Shown: positions 18,769 through 27,038 of the stretch, in pieces
Layout of the letters: each line of letters opens with the position of its first letter
Numbering within the stretch: the first letter of the stretch is position 1
Source: Balneolales bacterium ANBcel1
GTDB taxonomy: Bacteria; Bacteroidota; Rhodothermia; Balneolales; Natronogracilivirgulaceae
Assembly: GCA_029688905.1 (NCBI GenBank)
Contig: JARULB010000001.1
Span: 310,001-374,000 of the forward strand
Direction: 5' to 3'
DNA length: 64,000 nt
The notes under the pieces: generated by a model
What the model saw: only the letters and a program-made list of their open reading frames with translations
Told to the model about the DNA's origin: nothing
Database searches by the model: none
Program-made: the position numbers and the translations under genes

Positions 18769-20043
18769 TCAGTTCAGAATAACCATCTTGACGGTTTCAA
18801 TCCGCGACTGTGTCGCCTTGCTGATGATGAACTTGTGGCTTCCGATCACAATCTCCTCATTGACCTTGGGGATGCGTCCCACCTCGTTGATGATATACCC
18901 GGCGATGGTCTCGTAGTTCTGTTTCTTCACCGGCCAGGCCACAGACGGGTACTTCTCGGAAAGCAGCGCAAGCGGCACATCCCCATTCATGATGAATGTA
19001 TTGGATGACACCCGTTTTATCAGCGTATCCTCCATATCGTACTCGTCCTGAATATCACCCACCACCTCTTCAAGCAGGTCCTCGGTGGTGATGAGGCCGG
19101 CCGTGCCTCCATATTCGTCAATTACAATGGCCAGGGAGATATTGAGTTTTTGAAACTCGGAAAGCAGGTCCTTGGATTTCTGGCTGGAAGGGATGTGCTT
19201 CACCGGGCGGATAATATCGCTGAGCTGCTTCGGGTTCTTGAAAAGGTCGTACGCGAATACCACACCGATCACATTATCGATGCTTTCGTCATATACCGGC
19301 AGTTTGGAAAAGCCGGATGAAACGAATTTCTGCAGGACCTCCTGGAGTTCGGCATTCTTCTCGCAAGCCACGATTTCGGTGCGCGGTATCATGGACTCCC
19401 GGACCCGCTTATTGGAAAGCTGCAGGACATTGGTCAGGAGTTCCGAATCGTCCCGGTCGATATCCGACTCATCGCTGTCGCCAAGTTCCCGCAGCAGCAT
19501 CTCAATATCCTGGCGGCGATACACCTGTTCCGATGTTTCGGATTGCGGGATGGCCAGGGCGATCAGCTTGCCGGCAACTCCGTTTGCAAAATAGATGAAC
19601 GGAAGGAATACGGCGTGGAGTACACGGTGAAATATCGCCAGATTAAAGATGAGTGCTTCGGAATTGATCCGGAAGATCACTTTCGGCACGATCTCGCCGA
19701 AAAACATGATCACTATGGAGGCGATGACTGTTTGGATGAACAGCACCGCAAAGTCCGAGGGGAACGTGTCGAACAGTGCGACATAGGCGGCGGAAACCGG
19801 CTGGACGAGAAATATTGCCATCAGCGTGGCGTAGATCACGTTGACAATATTATTGCCGATGAGGGTGGTGGAAAGGAAAGCCTCCCGATCTCTCAGGAAA
19901 AAAGCCATTACCCGGGAGCGAAGAGACGTTTTTCGTGCCCTGATCTCCAGTTTCAGCCGGTTGGCGGAAACATAGCCGATCTCCGAGCCTGCAAAAAATG
20001 CGCTCAGCAGGATAACCAGGGCAATCAGAAGCCACTCGTTCAT
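18769..20043 (-). CDS. CNNM/CorC-type transporter with CBS domains (hemolysin family)
   Basis: A 424-residue integral membrane protein. Residues 1-200 form a DUF21/CNNM domain: LSAFFAGSEIGYVSANRLKLE, TTLIGNNIVNVIYATL and a third and fourth helix around VASIVIMFFGEIVPKVIF. Then two CBS domains (MIPRTEIVACEKNAELQEVL and PVKHIPSSQKSKDLLSEF) and a C-terminal CorC-HlyC domain (DVPLALLSEKYPSVAW). Such proteins move Mg2+ or other divalent cations and sense nucleotide through CBS. It is convergent with xseA. The name hemolysin is historical and does not imply toxicity. Confidence 0.92.
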   Translation of the reverse strand: MNEWLLIALVILLSAFFAGSEIGYVSANRLKLEIRARKTSLRSRVMAFFLRDREAFLSTTLIGNNIVNVIYATLMAIFLVQPVSAAYVALFDTFPSDFAVLFIQTVIASIVIMFFGEIVPKVIFRINSEALIFNLAIFHRVLHAVFLPFIYFANGVAGKLIALAIPQSETSEQVYRRQDIEMLLRELGDSDESDIDRDDSELLTNVLQLSNKRVRESMIPRTEIVACEKNAELQEVLQKFVSSGFSKLPVYDESIDNVIGVVFAYDLFKNPKQLSDIIRPVKHIPSSQKSKDLLSEFQKLNISLAIVIDEYGGTAGLITTEDLLEEVVGDIQDEYDMEDTLIKRVSSNTFIMNGDVPLALLSEKYPSVAWPVKKQNYETIAGYIINEVGRIPKVNEEIVIGSHKFIISKATQSRIETVKMVILN

Positions 20044-20149: not shown

Positions 20150-20935
20150 TTATTTATTATTAAACCCGGGTTTTCGCTTCTCCAGGAAGGCGGAAGTGCC
20201 CTCCCTGAAGTCGTCCGTCCCGCACAACAAGCCGAACAGCCGCGCCTCTTCCTGGAACCCCTGCGCCCGATTGGGATAAGCGGCATGCACCGACTCTATC
20301 GCTTTTTTGATGGCGATTGGAGCCTTTTTTGTGATCTGCTGAAGCCAGAGCCGCGACGCCGCAACGGTGCGCCCGTTTTCAACGATGCGATTGACCAGGC
20401 CGAAGTCCAGCGCGGTTTGCGCGTCGATCGGCCGGCCGTCCAGGATCATCTCCAGTGCCCGGCCCTTGCCGATCAGCCTCGGCAGGCGCTGTGTGCCCCC
20501 GTAACCGGGTATAAGTCCCAGGCCGAGCTCGGGCAGGCCGAACTGCGCCCCGCGTGAGGCAACCCTGAGATGGCAGGCCAGGGCAAGCTCACATCCACCC
20601 CCAAGCGCATACCCCTCAATGGCGGCGATGACCGGCTTGCCGGTAGATTCGATGATGGAAAAGACAACCTGCCCTTTTCTTGAAGCCCGTTCACCGCTCT
20701 TCACTTTCAGCTTCTGCAGTTCGGCAATGTCGGCGCCGGCTGCAAACGCCTTCTCCCCGCTTCCGGTCACCACAATGCCCGTAACCTCCGGATCTTCTTC
20801 AAGTTGCCCGAAAAGCTCCTGAAGCTCATCCAGCATCCGGTTGCCGAGCACGTTGAGTTTGTCCGGACGGTTGATGGTCACCGTCGCGATTCCTTCCTCA
20901 TATGCCACTTTCAGCGTTTCATGCCGATCGTTCAT
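20150..20935 (-). CDS. Enoyl-CoA hydratase/isomerase family protein
   Basis: A 261-residue crotonase-fold protein. The CoA and oxyanion segments are GSGEKAFAAGADIAELQ and AIEGYALGGGCELALACHLRVAS, followed by GLPELGLGLIPGYGGTQRLPRLIGKG, which places one catalytic Glu in LPEL. Most such proteins hydrate enoyl-CoA in beta-oxidation or related acyl-CoA routes. The ATG at 20935 gives the usual length; an upstream extension of 25 residues has no similarity. It follows nothing obvious as an operon, and its exact substrate cannot be told. Confidence 0.9.
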   Translation of the reverse strand: MNDRHETLKVAYEEGIATVTINRPDKLNVLGNRMLDELQELFGQLEEDPEVTGIVVTGSGEKAFAAGADIAELQKLKVKSGERASRKGQVVFSIIESTGKPVIAAIEGYALGGGCELALACHLRVASRGAQFGLPELGLGLIPGYGGTQRLPRLIGKGRALEMILDGRPIDAQTALDFGLVNRIVENGRTVAASRLWLQQITKKAPIAIKKAIESVHAAYPNRAQGFQEEARLFGLLCGTDDFREGTSAFLEKRKPGFNNK

Positions 20936-21058
20936 GCGCACCTGATAATTTTTGTTATGGCATATAGTATAAGCCGGAGCAGCCATTTGGTCAACATCTA
21001 TCGACAGCATGCCTGATTACGCGATCAATGGCTGAATATTACCCGCGGTGAAAAAAAA

Positions 21059-21158: not shown

Positions 21159-21539
21159 ATGAAACGATCCCTGACACCGCTTGGTGAAACCGAAATGGAA
21201 GTTCTGCAACACGTATGGGACCTGGGGGAAGCCACCGGCAACGATGTCCGGAAACGGATACATCAGACCCGTGACCTGGCCTACACCACCATCATAACCG
21301 TACTCAAAAACCTGGTTCAAAAGGGGTATCTGAAGTACCGCAAAGAGGGTGTTACCCATGTTTACAGTGCAGCGCGAGAGCCGGAGTCGGTTCGCTACAA
21401 TCTGGTGAATCATCTTGTGGAAAAAGTATTCAGAGGCTCCAGAGCCGATCTTATCCAGACTCTGGTGGAAAAGGAAAAACTGACTGCGGAACAGCTTAAG
21501 GAAATCCGAAGAATGATCGACCAGCTGGACGAGCAGTAA
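21159..21539 (+). CDS. BlaI/MecI/CopY family transcriptional repressor
   Basis: A 126-residue winged-helix repressor: LTPLGETEMEVLQHVWDLGEATGNDVRKRI, then the recognition part TTIITVLKNLVQKGYLKY and the wing KEGVTHVYSAA. The C-terminal helices (residues about 80-126) dimerise. In the family the repressor is cleaved when an M56 membrane peptidase senses a signal. The next gene encodes exactly such a peptidase, though frameshifted here. Its own promoter carries a matching dyad operator. The regulated function is unknown; no beta-lactamase is nearby. Confidence 0.93.
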   Translation: MKRSLTPLGETEMEVLQHVWDLGEATGNDVRKRIHQTRDLAYTTIITVLKNLVQKGYLKYRKEGVTHVYSAAREPESVRYNLVNHLVEKVFRGSRADLIQTLVEKEKLTAEQLKEIRRMIDQLDEQ

Positions 21540-21724
21540 CAGTCGCGCTTCAATGGAAACGCGATGAACCGGTTGGGCCGGCTTGCCTGCCGAATCCCGG
21601 GCGATAGCAGCCATGCGTCAACGGCTTGCTATCTGCTGTACCCTCAACTCATTACACACTGCCGGGCGCGGACTGTCATTTCCCGGCGACAACCCGCCGC
21701 AAGGCCACATCAAACGCAATTGTC

Positions 21725-22875
21725 ATGGAGACATCGCAACTGATCCCTTTCATCACCTCGTTCCTGGAATCGGCCGGAACCGCCAGCATCAGCTATCTGT
21801 GGATACCGGCTGCCGTATGGCTGATAGCCGTGCTGACCGTCCTCGGACTGCTTCGCCTGGCCGCGAACATGGACGCCCTGTACCACTATCATATCCGGAC
21901 GGCGCTCATCCTCAGCCTTCCGGCCCCGTCCCCCTGAGCCTGTCCAACCGTACGCTACTCGACTCGATGCGCTTCAAGCCGCGCCTGATACTTGGTGGCC
22001 GAACCCCGGTACCCTGCACTTTCGGCACATTTCGTCCGGTCATAATCATCCCGGAGAAGCTGAGGGAGTCACCGCAAAAACTGAATATGGCCGTGCGCCA
22101 TGAGCTGATTCACATCCGACGGGGGGATTCCCTGCTGAACATGCTGATGATGCTCACCATCACGCTTTTCTGGTTCATCCCGCTGCTGCATCTGCTGTTC
22201 TCGCGGGTAAAAATGTACCGTGAGCTATCCTGTGACCGGGATGTGCTCAGTGAAAACGGATTTTCCAGAAAAGAATACGCCGAGCTGTTGTTTGAGATGG
22301 CCATGCATACCGGCCGTCACCATTCATCATTGCTGGGTATGTCCATTGAACCATCCATCCTAAAGAAGAGGATTGAGAATATGAATACAAAAGAACAACA
22401 CCAGCGATCATTCAGGAAGAGTCTTGGCTTTTTGTTTGTCACCCTTTTAGCCATCACGGTGGTTATTTCGTGCTCGGATATACAGAGCAGCGGACAAGGC
22501 GCGGAGCCGGCCTCTTCGGTTTCGTCATCCGCTGAGGGTGCTGCCACCTCAACCGCCGCCCTGGATGAGGAAACTGTGTACACCGAAGTGGAGATCATGC
22601 CGGAAATGGAGGGCGGAATCATCTCATTGTACGAGTACCTGACCTATCCTGATGATGCGCGCGCCGCCGGTATCGAAGGGCAGGTTGTGGTGCAGTTTGT
22701 CGTCGATGAAGAGGGCCGGGTCACACAACCGCAGGTTGTGCGAAGCGCGGGCGGTGGCCTGGACGAAGCGGCGCTTGATGCCATTGAGCAGGTCGCCTTC
22801 ACACCCGGAAGAAAAGACGGAACTCCCGTGAAAGTGGAAATTGCGATGCCGATCTCCTTCCGGCTGAGTCAATAG
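21725..22875 (+). pseudogene. M56 (BlaR1-like) membrane metallopeptidase with TonB C-terminal domain, frameshifted
   Basis: The ATG at 21725 opens METSQLIPFITSF, two membrane helices and the segment YHYHIRTALILSLPA, then stops at 21935-21937. From about 21935 the -1 frame continues the family sequence: LSLSNRTLLDSMRFKPR, the zinc motif HELIH in VRHELIHIRRGD, YRELSCDRDVL, another helix (LGFLFVTLLAITVVISC), a Ser/Ala-rich linker, and a C-terminal TonB-like domain (YPDDARAAGIEGQVVVQFVVDEEG...AFTPGRKDGTPV). One extra C in the CCCCC run at 21930-21934 would join the frames. It may be a real mutation, a sequencing error, or a programmed slip. It partners the BlaI-type gene upstream. Confidence 0.8.
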
Positions 22876-23028: not shown

Positions 23029-23853
23029 TCAACTGTTCATGTAGCGGTCGTATCGGGAAAGCATGGCCGCGTCTTCCTCCAGCTGACGGATGTAGGCCGA
23101 GGTATCTTCCAGCTCCGCCATCATTTCATCAAGCTGGCTGCCGAAATCGTCGGGATGGTAGATCGTCATTGTCTTTTCATAGACGTACCGCACCGCGTCT
23201 TCGATGGTCTCCTGCCGGGTCGTGCAGATATCTACCCGTTCCTCGGCGGACTTCAGCTTCTCGAGGCGTTTTTTAAGAATCTCCAGGCGCCGTGTCCGTA
23301 CCTCCCTGAGCTGGCCCGAGTATTCGGCTTTCAGCTCCAGCTCAAGTGAGCGGATCTCAAGAATGAGCGCGCCGGTGGAGGATTGCCGCAGAAGCTCGCT
23401 GAACCGCTCATGGAAAACAAGTTGCCGCAGGTACTCCGACATCAGCGATTCGATTCGCGAGACCAGCGGTTCCGCCAGCAGGCGGGCCGAGCCCGGCATC
23501 GACCGGAAGTTGGCATCGATTTTGTCGCACAGGCGCTTGAGGATCAGAAACTTTTTCTGGCTGTGCACCTGGAGTTCGTCGAACATGCGTTTCTCTGTGC
23601 CGGCACCGTCCTGATCCCTGGCGTCGAGGCGTTCGATGATGTACCTGCGAAACCATGGCTGATGCGGTACCGTCCCGAGATAGAGCAATTCCACTCCAAT
23701 GCCGATGGTCAGTACCAGGGTCGGCATCCAGGGGGTTCCGGACACCATCAGGGCACCCAGGCTCACCAGCAGCAGATACCCCAGGTTAAGCGGATGAAGA
23801 AACGCTTCTCTGGCCAGGTTCAAGGAGTGATATTCGGGACGATGGTCAGGCAT
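23029..23853 (-). CDS. Membrane coiled-coil protein of unknown function, overlapping pspA
   Basis: A 274-residue protein I do not recognise. Residues 24-39 and 44-60 are two hydrophobic helices forming a hairpin; the rest is cytoplasmic or periplasmic and strongly helical, with charged heptad-like stretches at about 85-125 and 165-215 (RRLEILKKRLEKLKSAEE) and a third at the end. Its start codon lies inside the last eight bases of pspA, so the two are translationally coupled. This suggests it acts with PspA in membrane stress, perhaps as a membrane docking partner. It does not look like PspB or PspC. Confidence 0.7.
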   Translation of the reverse strand: MPDHRPEYHSLNLAREAFLHPLNLGYLLLVSLGALMVSGTPWMPTLVLTIGIGVELLYLGTVPHQPWFRRYIIERLDARDQDGAGTEKRMFDELQVHSQKKFLILKRLCDKIDANFRSMPGSARLLAEPLVSRIESLMSEYLRQLVFHERFSELLRQSSTGALILEIRSLELELKAEYSGQLREVRTRRLEILKKRLEKLKSAEERVDICTTRQETIEDAVRYVYEKTMTIYHPDDFGSQLDEMMAELEDTSAYIRQLEEDAAMLSRYDRYMNS

Positions 23854-24616
23854 GGTCGTTGTTATTCACATGTGTTTTGGTGTGGGAGAGAATTCCCGGT
23901 TCCGATTTGTTAATGAACACCTCTCCCTGTTTCTTGCCGGCTTCAAGCGAACGCGGGGTTTCCATCTGTTTTTTGAACTGCCGGACGATCTCACCGGCCT
24001 TCAGCCTTTCGGCATCGTACTCCAACTCGATGGATTCGCTGTCGACGCTGTCGAGCGCCATCTCCATGCGGGCTTCGTTCCTGGCGGTCTCTTCGCGTAT
24101 CCGGGCGATCATCTCGTCGTGGGTCGCATCCACTCCGCTCACTTCAAACTGCTCGAGCGTATCCGCCACACGGGCCTGCCAGGCCGAGCGTTCGCTCTCT
24201 CTCATGGCCTCTTTCGCCTCGCGGATTTTGCGGTCCTTCTCGGTCATGAATGTCTTCTTGACCTGCAGGGCCTTGTCGTACGCTTTCCGGGCGTTTTCGA
24301 GTTGATTTCTGGAAGCGGTGAGCGCATCCCGGCCCCGCTGAAGCTGCAGGGCGTAGTTTTCGGCGATATCGTCCCGTTCGGCTTTGATGGCCGTTTTAAT
24401 GCGCAGGGAAAGCTCGCTGACCTGATCCTCATAGCGCTGCACTTCTTTTTGCAGCAGCATCACGTTGGCTTTCACCGTGGCGATGTTCTCGTTCATCCGG
24501 GGAACCTGGTCGTTCAGTTCCCGGATGTTCATCTCAAGGATCCGCTTGGGATCCTCAATGGCGCTTACTGCTCCGCCAAATATCGATCTGATGGCACGTA
24601 CAAATCTTCTCCACAT
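23846..24616 (-). CDS. pspA: PspA/IM30 family membrane-stress protein
   Basis: A 256-residue, almost wholly helical protein. The amphipathic N-terminal helix MWRRFVRAIRSIFGGAVSAIEDPKRIL is followed by the long hairpin coiled coil of the PspA/Vipp1/ESCRT-III fold, with the conserved Pro after the first helix. Members polymerise on stressed membranes and keep them from leaking. The C-terminal tail from about 215 is less conserved and hydrophilic. It is first in a two-gene unit with the overlapping membrane coiled-coil gene; no PspF or PspBC genes are nearby. Confidence 0.9.
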   Translation of the reverse strand: MWRRFVRAIRSIFGGAVSAIEDPKRILEMNIRELNDQVPRMNENIATVKANVMLLQKEVQRYEDQVSELSLRIKTAIKAERDDIAENYALQLQRGRDALTASRNQLENARKAYDKALQVKKTFMTEKDRKIREAKEAMRESERSAWQARVADTLEQFEVSGVDATHDEMIARIREETARNEARMEMALDSVDSESIELEYDAERLKAGEIVRQFKKQMETPRSLEAGKKQGEVFINKSEPGILSHTKTHVNNNDHA

Positions 24617-24655: not shown

Positions 24656-25999
24656 TCAGGCTGTGCTCCATGGAGTTACGCCATCGCGTGTTACCTTGTC
24701 GGTGATCAGGGCGGGGGTTTCCGGCCTTGTCGAACCAACGGTAACGGCATCCTGCAGCATCTGCCGGACCCTGTCCGTTGTTTCTTCCTTATTCGTGCGG
24801 CACCTGGCGATTGTTTCACCCTGTTTGACGGGATCGCCGATCTTTTTGTCCAGAATAATGCCCGCCACCGGGTCGATGGTATCCTCCTTGGATGCGCGTC
24901 CCGCCCCCAACTCCACTCCGGCCATGCCGATAGCGTAGGCGTCCATCTGTGTGACATAGCCTGCGGACGCGGCCTGAACCTCAAAAGAATGTTTTGCCGC
25001 CGGATAGCCCTCCGGCCGATCCAGGTATTCGGTGGATCCGTCCTGGGCGGTTACAATATCCCGGAACTTCTGCATGGCGGAACCGTCCTGTACCGATTTT
25101 CTGCTCTTTTCAACTCCCTCCTCAATGGATCCGGCCTTGCCGCCCAGCCAGATCATGGTGCCCGCGAGCAGGTGCGACACCTCCAGCAGGTCAGCGGGAC
25201 CGCCACCGTTCAGACATTCGATGCTCTCCTCAACCTCCAGCCAGTTGCCGATTTTGTGGCCCAGCGGTTGCTCCATGGCGGTGAGCCAGGCAATGGTGCG
25301 CTTGCCGAACTCCTCGCCGATCGACACCAGCCGCTGCGCAAGCTCCAGCGCCTGATCGCGTGTCTTCATGAAAGCGCCGGAACCGAATTTCACATCCAGC
25401 ACCAGGGCATCGATGCCCTCGGCCAGCTTCTTGCTCATGATGCTGCCGGCGATCAGGGGGATGGACTCGACGGTGGCCGTAACATCCCGCAGGGCGTACA
25501 TACGCTTGTCGGCCGGAGCGATCTCTTCGGTCTGCCCGATGAGGACCACATTGTGCTCCCTGAGTACCTCGACATATCGTTTTAGGTCCAGGTTGACATT
25601 AAACCCCGGGATGGATTCCAGCTTGTCGAGAGTACCGCCCGAATGTCCGAGTCCGCGGCCCGATATCATCGGTACGGGCACGCCGCAGGCGGCAACGATC
25701 GGAGCGAGGATCAGCGACGTCTTGTCGCCTACACCACCGGTGGAGTGTTTGTCGACTTTGATTCCCGGCACATCCGAAAGATCCATTACGGTGCCGGAGT
25801 GGAGCATTTCGCGGGTGAGGGCCGCCGCCTCGTCGTCATCCAGCCCGTTCAGAAAGGCGGCCATCAAAAAGGCGCTCATCTGGTAGTCGGGCACGGCATC
25901 GCGGCTGTACTGCTGGATCAGGTACCTGATCTCCTCTGATGAAAGGGAACGTTTGTCGCGCTTCTTCCGGATGAGCGAGGCGATATTATAGCTGTTCAT
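24656..25999 (-). CDS. Pyrimidine-nucleoside (thymidine) phosphorylase
   Basis: A 447-residue enzyme of the nucleoside phosphorylase family II, cleaving thymidine, deoxyuridine or uridine with phosphate to base and (deoxy)ribose-1-phosphate. The signature KHSTGGVGDKTSLILAP binds phosphate, and ISGRGLGHSGGTLDKLESIPG is the pyrimidine/sugar segment. Later come DVKFGSGAFMKT and a C-terminal domain. The ATG at 25999 starts MNSYNIASLIRKKRD, normal for the family; an open frame upstream has no similarity. I cannot tell the thymidine-specific DeoA type from the broader Pdp type by eye. It is divergent to the next gene. Confidence 0.93.
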   Translation of the reverse strand: MNSYNIASLIRKKRDKRSLSSEEIRYLIQQYSRDAVPDYQMSAFLMAAFLNGLDDDEAAALTREMLHSGTVMDLSDVPGIKVDKHSTGGVGDKTSLILAPIVAACGVPVPMISGRGLGHSGGTLDKLESIPGFNVNLDLKRYVEVLREHNVVLIGQTEEIAPADKRMYALRDVTATVESIPLIAGSIMSKKLAEGIDALVLDVKFGSGAFMKTRDQALELAQRLVSIGEEFGKRTIAWLTAMEQPLGHKIGNWLEVEESIECLNGGGPADLLEVSHLLAGTMIWLGGKAGSIEEGVEKSRKSVQDGSAMQKFRDIVTAQDGSTEYLDRPEGYPAAKHSFEVQAASAGYVTQMDAYAIGMAGVELGAGRASKEDTIDPVAGIILDKKIGDPVKQGETIARCRTNKEETTDRVRQMLQDAVTVGSTRPETPALITDKVTRDGVTPWSTA

Positions 26000-26192
26000 T
26001 GACGGATACTGTTTGAAATTCGGACTTCCATGTTTAAGAGTCGGCAAAATTTTGATATCTTGCGTGACGATCGGTACCGTTTGCCGGTAAATACCGGAAT
26101 CCGAAGATGTTTCGACCATTTCGCAGAAATTTGCCTCTCTGCTGTATTGTGGTGACATAATCGGGCAGAATCTTAACAATGGCAACTACCGC

Positions 26193-27038
26193 ATGGAGAT
26201 CTCGCCGTTTCAATTACTGCTTTTGCTCATCCTGATTATCCCGCTGATCCGGCGGGTATGGGACAATCTGAAGAAGGGTGACGACACCGGCCACGAAGGG
26301 GAAAACCTGCCAGAGGATCCCTGGAGTGTAGATCAGGATACCGAAAGCCGCTATCCGCAGGAGGCGGCCGGCCGGCACCGGCCCGGTGAATCGCGCTCAC
26401 AGGAGAACGGATACGGCGCATCCCCACAGCATACCGCGGAACAGCCGCGCGGGGAACAGAGCTGGGAGGATTTCTTTGAAGGCCTGGAAAAGGTGCTGTC
26501 CAGCGATGAGTCCGAGCAGAACAGGCAGCGTGAAAGCCAGCGCGAGCCCGCGTCAGCGTCATACGGCCGCGAGACGGCCGGAACGGTCTCGCAGCGAACA
26601 CGCGACGCTTCGTCCCGTCATCCCCTGGAAGGCCCTGTATACTCCGAAAGCGGCCATGGCGCGCGCGGTGCCTCTGCCTCAGCCGGTGGACATTCGGCTT
26701 CCGGCGGCTCTTACGGCAGTGCCACTTCTTCCGCTTCCGGCCAATCCCGGAGAGGTACCGGTGACAGCCGTGGTTCCCGTCCCTCGTCCGACCCGTTCCG
26801 CCATAAAGAGCACCGCTGGTCCGATACCGGAGAGGAGATCGAACAGGAGCTGGCCGACAAGGAGAATCCCATCTACGCCACGCTCGACGACGAGCCCACC
26901 GTCACCCGCCTCGGGATGAGCGGCAGGAAAAACGTCAAACGGATTCTTGGGGATCCCGAAAGAGTCCGTGACGGCATCATGCTGAAAGTGATCCTGGAAC
27001 CGCCGAGATCGCGTCGCGGGCGACCTGACCGTTTTTGA
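26193..27038 (+). CDS. Membrane-anchored low-complexity protein of unknown function
   Basis: A 281-residue protein with one N-terminal helix (FQLLLLLILIIPLIRRVW), then about 190 residues rich in Ser, Gly, Glu, Arg, Gln and Pro that should be disordered. The last 60 residues look ordered: ENPIYATLDDEPTVTR, then NVKRILGDPERVRDGIMLKVIL. This short ordered tail may be the functional part. I do not recognise the family. It stands one base ahead of pdxB and probably shares its transcript. Confidence 0.65.
   Translation: MEISPFQLLLLLILIIPLIRRVWDNLKKGDDTGHEGENLPEDPWSVDQDTESRYPQEAAGRHRPGESRSQENGYGASPQHTAEQPRGEQSWEDFFEGLEKVLSSDESEQNRQRESQREPASASYGRETAGTVSQRTRDASSRHPLEGPVYSESGHGARGASASAGGHSASGGSYGSATSSASGQSRRGTGDSRGSRPSSDPFRHKEHRWSDTGEEIEQELADKENPIYATLDDEPTVTRLGMSGRKNVKRILGDPERVRDGIMLKVILEPPRSRRGRPDRF

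Follow-up and report, generated by a model that had tools for sequence, protein, structure and literature searches.

The gene that follows pspA in the window (the whole 64,000-nucleotide stretch that was analysed, from Balneolales bacterium ANBcel1) encodes a protein, here called the partner, which is inherited and linked with a divergent PspA across the genomes of its class. This co-inheritance and linkage support the two proteins as functional partners. Our preferred reading, to which we give about an even chance of being right, is that the partner is a dedicated inner-membrane anchor of the divergent PspA polymer, and that the ancestral system also had a half-length PspA paralogue and an AAA+ ATPase, which the window's clade later lost. 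The features of the window are collected in Table 1.

Table 1. Features of the pspA-partner locus and its neighbours, in window coordinates.
Feature	Coordinates	Strand	Remarks
Pyrimidine-nucleoside phosphorylase (deoA type), upstream neighbour	24656..26185	minus	same strand in 54/60 loci
pspA, 256 aa, divergent PspA/IM30 (bacterial ESCRT-III superfamily)	23846..24616	minus	PF04012 and Vipp1 profile match
PspA C-terminal tail, residues 220-256	23849..23959	minus	without the KTIG-like motif that most relatives have here or on the mid protein
Overlap of pspA stop and partner start, 8 nt	23846..23853	minus	shared with 4 further loci of the clade
Partner gene, 274 aa, no known family	23029..23853	minus	predicted two-helix membrane hairpin and helical cytosolic domain
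Partner membrane hairpin, residues 21-64	23662..23793	minus	hydropathy; AlphaFold2 helices 21-36 and 43-64
Partner helical, probably cytosolic domain, residues 84-273	23035..23604	minus	AlphaFold2, mostly pLDDT over 90; charge count of residues 64-90
Enoyl-CoA hydratase (ECH) family gene, usual downstream neighbour	20150..21010	minus	47/60 loci
CNNM/CorC membrane protein, usual further neighbour	18769..20043	minus	52/59 loci

The PspA of the window matches PF04012 (PspA_IM30) over residues 2-206 with E=1.2e-14 (54.9 bits, cut-off 33.9). A profile built for the PspA proteins of the class (A3) matched eight distinct PDB chains, all of them named Vipp1, PspA or sll0617, with E=7.3e-06 for the best Vipp1 match (profile positions 1-204). 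PspA and Vipp1 form membrane-remodelling polymers, as the accessible parts of PMC8281802 and PMC11746142 describe. The last 8 nt of pspA begin with the partner ATG, and the pspA TGA falls within ATGCCTGA; the preliminary description had put the start of the 274-residue gene inside the last pspA codons, and both genes lie where it placed them. The partner gene is taken as real because 206 of the 217 class genomes encode a homologue.

Hydropathy of the partner peaks at about residues 19-37 and 44-63, and the AlphaFold2 model (mean pLDDT 89.9, pTM 0.72) has its first two helices at residues 21-36 and 43-64, followed by helices only. The same plan was predicted (pLDDT 87.4) for a homologue, L089, with 28% identity to the window partner. 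Hydropathy and the two models support the membrane hairpin of the earlier proposal and place a helical domain behind it, where that proposal had long coiled coils. Because residues 23-63 contain no K/R while residues 64-90 contain six K/R (and five D/E), the positive-inside rule suggests that both ends of the partner are probably in the cytosol.

Searches against Pfam and NCBIfam gave nothing over the curated cut-offs for the partner, and no PDB sequence matched it below E=0.39. Neither the window partner (Pfam) nor five relatives showed a PspB, PspC or LiaI domain up to E=1, none of these was among the matches listed for 58 partner members (25 of 53 families), and Snf7 (PF03357) was absent from the matches of the window partner and the five relatives. 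Coiled-coil Pfam matches were considered as a family assignment and rejected as noise, the best listed being NPV_P10 (16 of the 58 members, E 8.9e-05). The protein had been described as unlike PspB, PspC or any nameable partner, and an existing family with a different role had been proposed as the point to check; Pfam, NCBIfam and the PDB give no credible family, and the description stands.

At the level of structure, Foldseek returned no PDB match for the partner model at E <= 0.001. VIA-align, for which the typical best Z of helical models is 14, was run in two comparisons. Judged by their titles, 28 and 19 of the 50 rows listed are BAR-family domains, which could suggest a BAR-like role for the cytosolic domain, sensing curvature or serving as a scaffold and so guiding PspA to curved membrane. 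However, Z reached at most 11.2 and 11.5, within the helical background, designed proteins stood among the top rows, and the helix lengths of the partner presumably differ from those of a classical BAR domain; Foldseek, too, was empty at its threshold, and we consider a BAR-like domain improbable. PspA and Vipp1 were absent among the VIA-align matches listed, as was ESCRT-III for the first model; the listed scores lie in the helical background, and this absence is uninformative. Since the Z values do not leave that background, we claim no fold for the helical domain.

The partner might instead belong with the ESCRT-III/Snf7-like subunits, anchored in the membrane and co-polymerising with PspA. 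The accessible text of PMC11237479 (Ravi et al. 2024) reports Bacteroidetes PspA with Snf7-like and coiled-coil neighbours, and also AAA+ ATPases accompanied by 'Snf7 homologs with a TM segment'. One of the two fold comparisons also contained an archaeal ESCRT-III filament chain, 9s99_B (CdvB2), at row 40 (Z 8.1, rmsd 4.0, 144 aligned), but a Z of 8 is helical background and Pfam gave no Snf7 match for the window partner or the five relatives. An hhalign comparison of the partner profile with that of PspA gives no sign of homology (probability 1.6, E 0.031), so that co-polymerisation of the two has no sequence support. We consider such a subunit unlikely.

The tie between the partner and PspA was examined in 217 class genomes, each at least 80% complete. 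Both proteins are encoded in 205 of them and neither in ten (G038, G076, G078, G086, G093, G109, G112, G116, G117 and G170); one genome has the partner only (G087, where the match begins 33 nt from the contig start) and one has PspA only (G110; Fisher p = 2e-15, kinship ignored). Because G110 keeps a PspA without the partner, that protein may function on its own, or it may be in decay. The count of 206 genomes with a homologue was obtained with an 18-row profile. Among close relatives of the window, which shares its genus with G001, the partner is present in 57 of 59. The distribution of the partner was searched within the phylum: in a sample of 296 genomes, it was matched in 74 class genomes and in one of the 222 others (G430). 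With the window partner as the single query, a scan of genome contigs matched one locus, and a tblastn search of a plasmid collection gave no match. A frameshift or a sequencing error probably explains why the homologue in one genome (G037:C1:2082573-2083438) is broken by a TAA into two overlapping pieces.

Sixty-one loci were read (the window, 20 and a further 40 from relatives). In all 61, pspA lies upstream of the partner on the same strand, either directly or with only one gene, here called mid, between them, at spacings from the 8-nt overlap up to 726 nt. This check of the homologues' neighbours, proposed in the preliminary description, therefore found the link to pspA at every locus. The flanking genes are conserved more loosely: deoA in 54/60, ECH in 47/60 and CNNM in 52/59 loci, counts that omit loci too short in the flank for the gene concerned. 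The partner could in principle travel with pspA merely as part of a conserved block (deoA-pspA-partner-ECH-CNNM) with no joint function, and the metabolic flanking genes are indeed conserved too. However, every flank is broken in several loci while the pspA-partner link is intact in all, and the two genes are jointly absent from ten genomes, several of them small; mere synteny is very improbable.

The overlap itself had been read as strong evidence of the partnership. The partnership is supported, but by co-inheritance and linkage: the 8-nt overlap occurs in only 5/61 loci, all in the window's clade, and an intervening gene is present in 49/61. It is therefore weak evidence, and we rejected it as the main proof.

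Another possibility is that the partner is a PspC-like sensor or regulator, which would hold PspA inactive at the membrane and release it under stress. The one-to-one inheritance with PspA would suit such a role, as would the hydrophobic hairpin of the partner, which is short and has almost no periplasmic part. Against it, no PspB or PspC domain is among the matches, and the block has no recurrent regulator, its recurrent neighbours being metabolic or transport genes; we regard a PspC-like regulator as distinctly unlikely, and more so than a Snf7-like subunit. In relatives, the partner and ECH genes are usually neighbours; in the window, a BlaI-type repressor and an M56/TonB-C protein (21159-22875, plus strand) lie between them on the opposite strand. 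Further along (26193-27038, plus strand), a 281-residue protein with no Pfam match is conserved in 11/22 loci (cluster c9).

A classical PspA (E about 1e-50) is present as a second copy in four genomes (G169, G181, G182 and G184), each of which has only one partner. The surroundings of this copy were read in G181 (L132:5856-6563), where it adjoins what we take for a CesT-like and a PspC-like gene, an arrangement also known from published PSP contexts. Since genomes with a second, classical PspA have a single partner, and the G181 copy has neighbours of its own, we take the divergent PspA to be the one to which the partner belongs.

The mid gene of relatives, found in the 49 loci with an intervening gene (for example L042:7147-7623), encodes a half-length PspA paralogue: hhalign aligns it with columns 150-279 of the PspA profile, the C-terminal half (probability 99.4, E=2e-21), and finds it unrelated to the partner (probability 0.5). 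The tails of PspA and of mid share a short motif, [KR][TS][ILVM]G (KTIG-like), present in 45/61 and 48/49 sequences, respectively; shuffled tails gave a mean of 0.8 and a maximum of 5 for PspA, and a mean of 0.6 and a maximum of 4 for mid. The motif occurs in 0/61 partners and in the tails of 1/54 deoA, 0/47 ECH and 0/52 CNNM proteins. At nine loci a motif-less PspA stands beside mid, and in all nine mid has two copies of the motif, compared with 7/40 of the remaining mid-bearing loci; because the nine loci come from four families, the independent events are few. Partner C-termini are rich in R/K, with at least two among the last eight residues in 54/61 partners; this may be a general feature, since 40/47 ECH proteins have them as well (PspA, 51/61).

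A 570-residue protein follows CNNM in families f2-f5 of the order and also in G007 and G008 of f1 (cluster c6, in 14 of the 22 loci first compared). It is an AAA+ ATPase (PF00004, E=7.2e-24; examples L049:11419-13146 and L133:5861-7705), and its closest PDB chains are VCP-like/Cdc48. No MIT domain was found in two members, in which AAA families were the only matches up to E=0.01. In its N-terminal half, conserved segments resemble Walker B and sensor 1 by eye, from which we infer that this half may be a degenerate AAA domain, but an hhalign comparison of the two halves was not significant (probability 0.6). Genome-wide, the ATPase is present at E<=1e-80 in 192/217 class genomes; of the 25 without it, five (G132, G146, G182, G213 and G220) were assigned by subtraction. 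Outside the order it lies elsewhere on the chromosome, near DeoC aldolase and amidohydrolases, in the 12 loci read, and no adaptor gene was found beside it in these loci. Two genomes, G076 and G170 (82% and 84% complete), have the ATPase while PspA and the partner are absent; they run against the pattern of co-inheritance unless assembly gaps explain them.

The motif and the ATPase are kept or lost together. Of the 61 loci, 53 have both, seven have neither, one has the motif only (G146, whose genome is 89% complete) and none has the ATPase only (Fisher p = 2e-8, kinship ignored). The seven loci with neither, the window among them, also lack mid; in the partner tree they group as a single clade (support 100/100) that lies within the ATPase-bearing rows. 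G110 lacks the ATPase, mid, the partner and the motif, and G111, of the same genus, has all four. The ATPase, mid and the motif were thus lost together in the window's clade, with a second joint loss in G110. Mid is not required for the other two, since five loci (L038, L088, L089, L122 and L123) have the motif and the ATPase without it. The pair in the window thus looks like what is left of a larger system, to which a half-PspA and an AAA+ ATPase also belonged.

The homologue in G430, a genome of another class, was matched at E=7.8e-4 in the genome search, and its whole ORF scores E=6.7e-18 against the profile, in a far smaller search space; on this score we take it as a true distant homologue. 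At its locus (L133), the partner homologue directly precedes an ATPase of the same type, which is followed by a coiled-coil gene. On a different contig of this assembly, a stretch 93% identical to the coiled-coil gene lies just ahead of pspA, so the partner-pspA link in G430 runs only via the coiled-coil gene common to both contigs. The G430 PspA has the variant KEIG at its end. Since the ATPase is present in only one of the 97 genomes of that class (G430 itself), the genes may have been transferred into G430, or its assembly may be mixed. The link between the motif and the ATPase is drawn from the two independent joint losses and from the neighbourhoods in G430 and in the order.

According to our preferred reading, the two N-terminal helices of the partner would form a hairpin within the inner membrane, and the helical domain, facing the cytosol, would bind and position PspA as a recruiter or holder. 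In the class ancestor the module would also have had the half-length PspA paralogue and the Cdc48-like AAA+ ATPase, which probably gripped the short motif on the tails of PspA and the paralogue and pulled subunits from the polymer. The window's clade would then have lost the ATPase, the paralogue and the motif together, leaving only PspA and the anchor. The partner is read as the anchor because it is the sole component besides PspA that the window's clade kept when it lost the others, and the original suggestion that it recruits or caps PspA polymers is plausible. If the window shows what remains once the ATPase arm is gone, then the two-pass protein and PspA would be the part that works without the ATPase. 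More tentatively, a full ESCRT-III/Vps4-like machine could be at work in the class, with PspA and half-PspA as polymer subunits, the motif as a handle, a dedicated Cdc48-like ATPase that reads the handle and extracts subunits, and the two-pass protein as membrane receptor; we consider this possible.

The accessible text of PMC11237479 poses as an open question how assembly is regulated by those PspA homologues that have no ATPase associated with them. A class in which a divergent PspA, its motif and an ATPase are kept or lost together, beside a constant membrane partner, makes this question directly testable, and sister lineages with and without the ATPase offer a natural before-and-after comparison.

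In the PspB-PspC-PspA system, a soluble PspA-family protein is brought to the membrane by a small membrane protein. Membrane recruitment by the partner would be alike there and in LiaI-LiaH, but no PspB, PspC or LiaI-type domain is among the partner's matches. At about 190 residues, the helical cytosolic domain of the partner is presumably far larger than LiaI. In LiaI-LiaH, the small membrane protein recruits the soluble PspA-family protein to the membrane (accessible parts of PMC9239133). The pspA operon of B. subtilis (PspA-YdjG-YdjH-YdjI) encodes membrane partners as well, according to the available portions of PMC8581546, PMC10936438 and PMC11237479; the likeness is that of a membrane partner encoded in a pspA operon, whereas YdjG-YdjH-YdjI use SPFH, zinc-ribbon and TPM domains, none of which is among the partner's matches.

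The neighbourhood of CBH24266.1 is probably the same locus type as the pspA-partner pair of the window. We take CBH24266.1 to belong to Salinibacter ruber. It is the example of a third, coiled-coil gene in Bacteroidetes PspA and Snf7 neighbourhoods in the accessible sections of PMC11237479, where its description names no membrane hairpin, tail motif or ATPase link. The same sections note that bacterial PspA occasionally co-occurs with a double AAA+ protein whose N-terminal copy is inactive, most likely of the same or a similar type as the class ATPase; as far as those sections go, the account has no class-wide one-to-one pattern, half-PspA, tail motif or joint loss. A pspA linkage of this kind is therefore partly in print, since coiled-coil and AAA+ neighbours are noted there. 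Our literature search, which covered titles and abstract openings and few subscription papers, returned nothing on the partner or the tail motif in this class.

With the ESCRT-III/Vps4 (Cdv) system of archaea and eukaryotes, the ancestral system would share an ESCRT-III-like polymer, several paralogous subunits, a short tail motif and an AAA+ ATPase. The class ATPase is, however, Cdc48-like with no MIT domain among its matches. We also take the tail motif to differ from MIM. Vps4 handles its subunits via MIM tails (accessible parts of PMC11746142 and PMC10936438). By analogy, the ancestral system of the class looks like a bacterial counterpart of ESCRT-III/Vps4, of which the window would keep the polymer and the anchor only.
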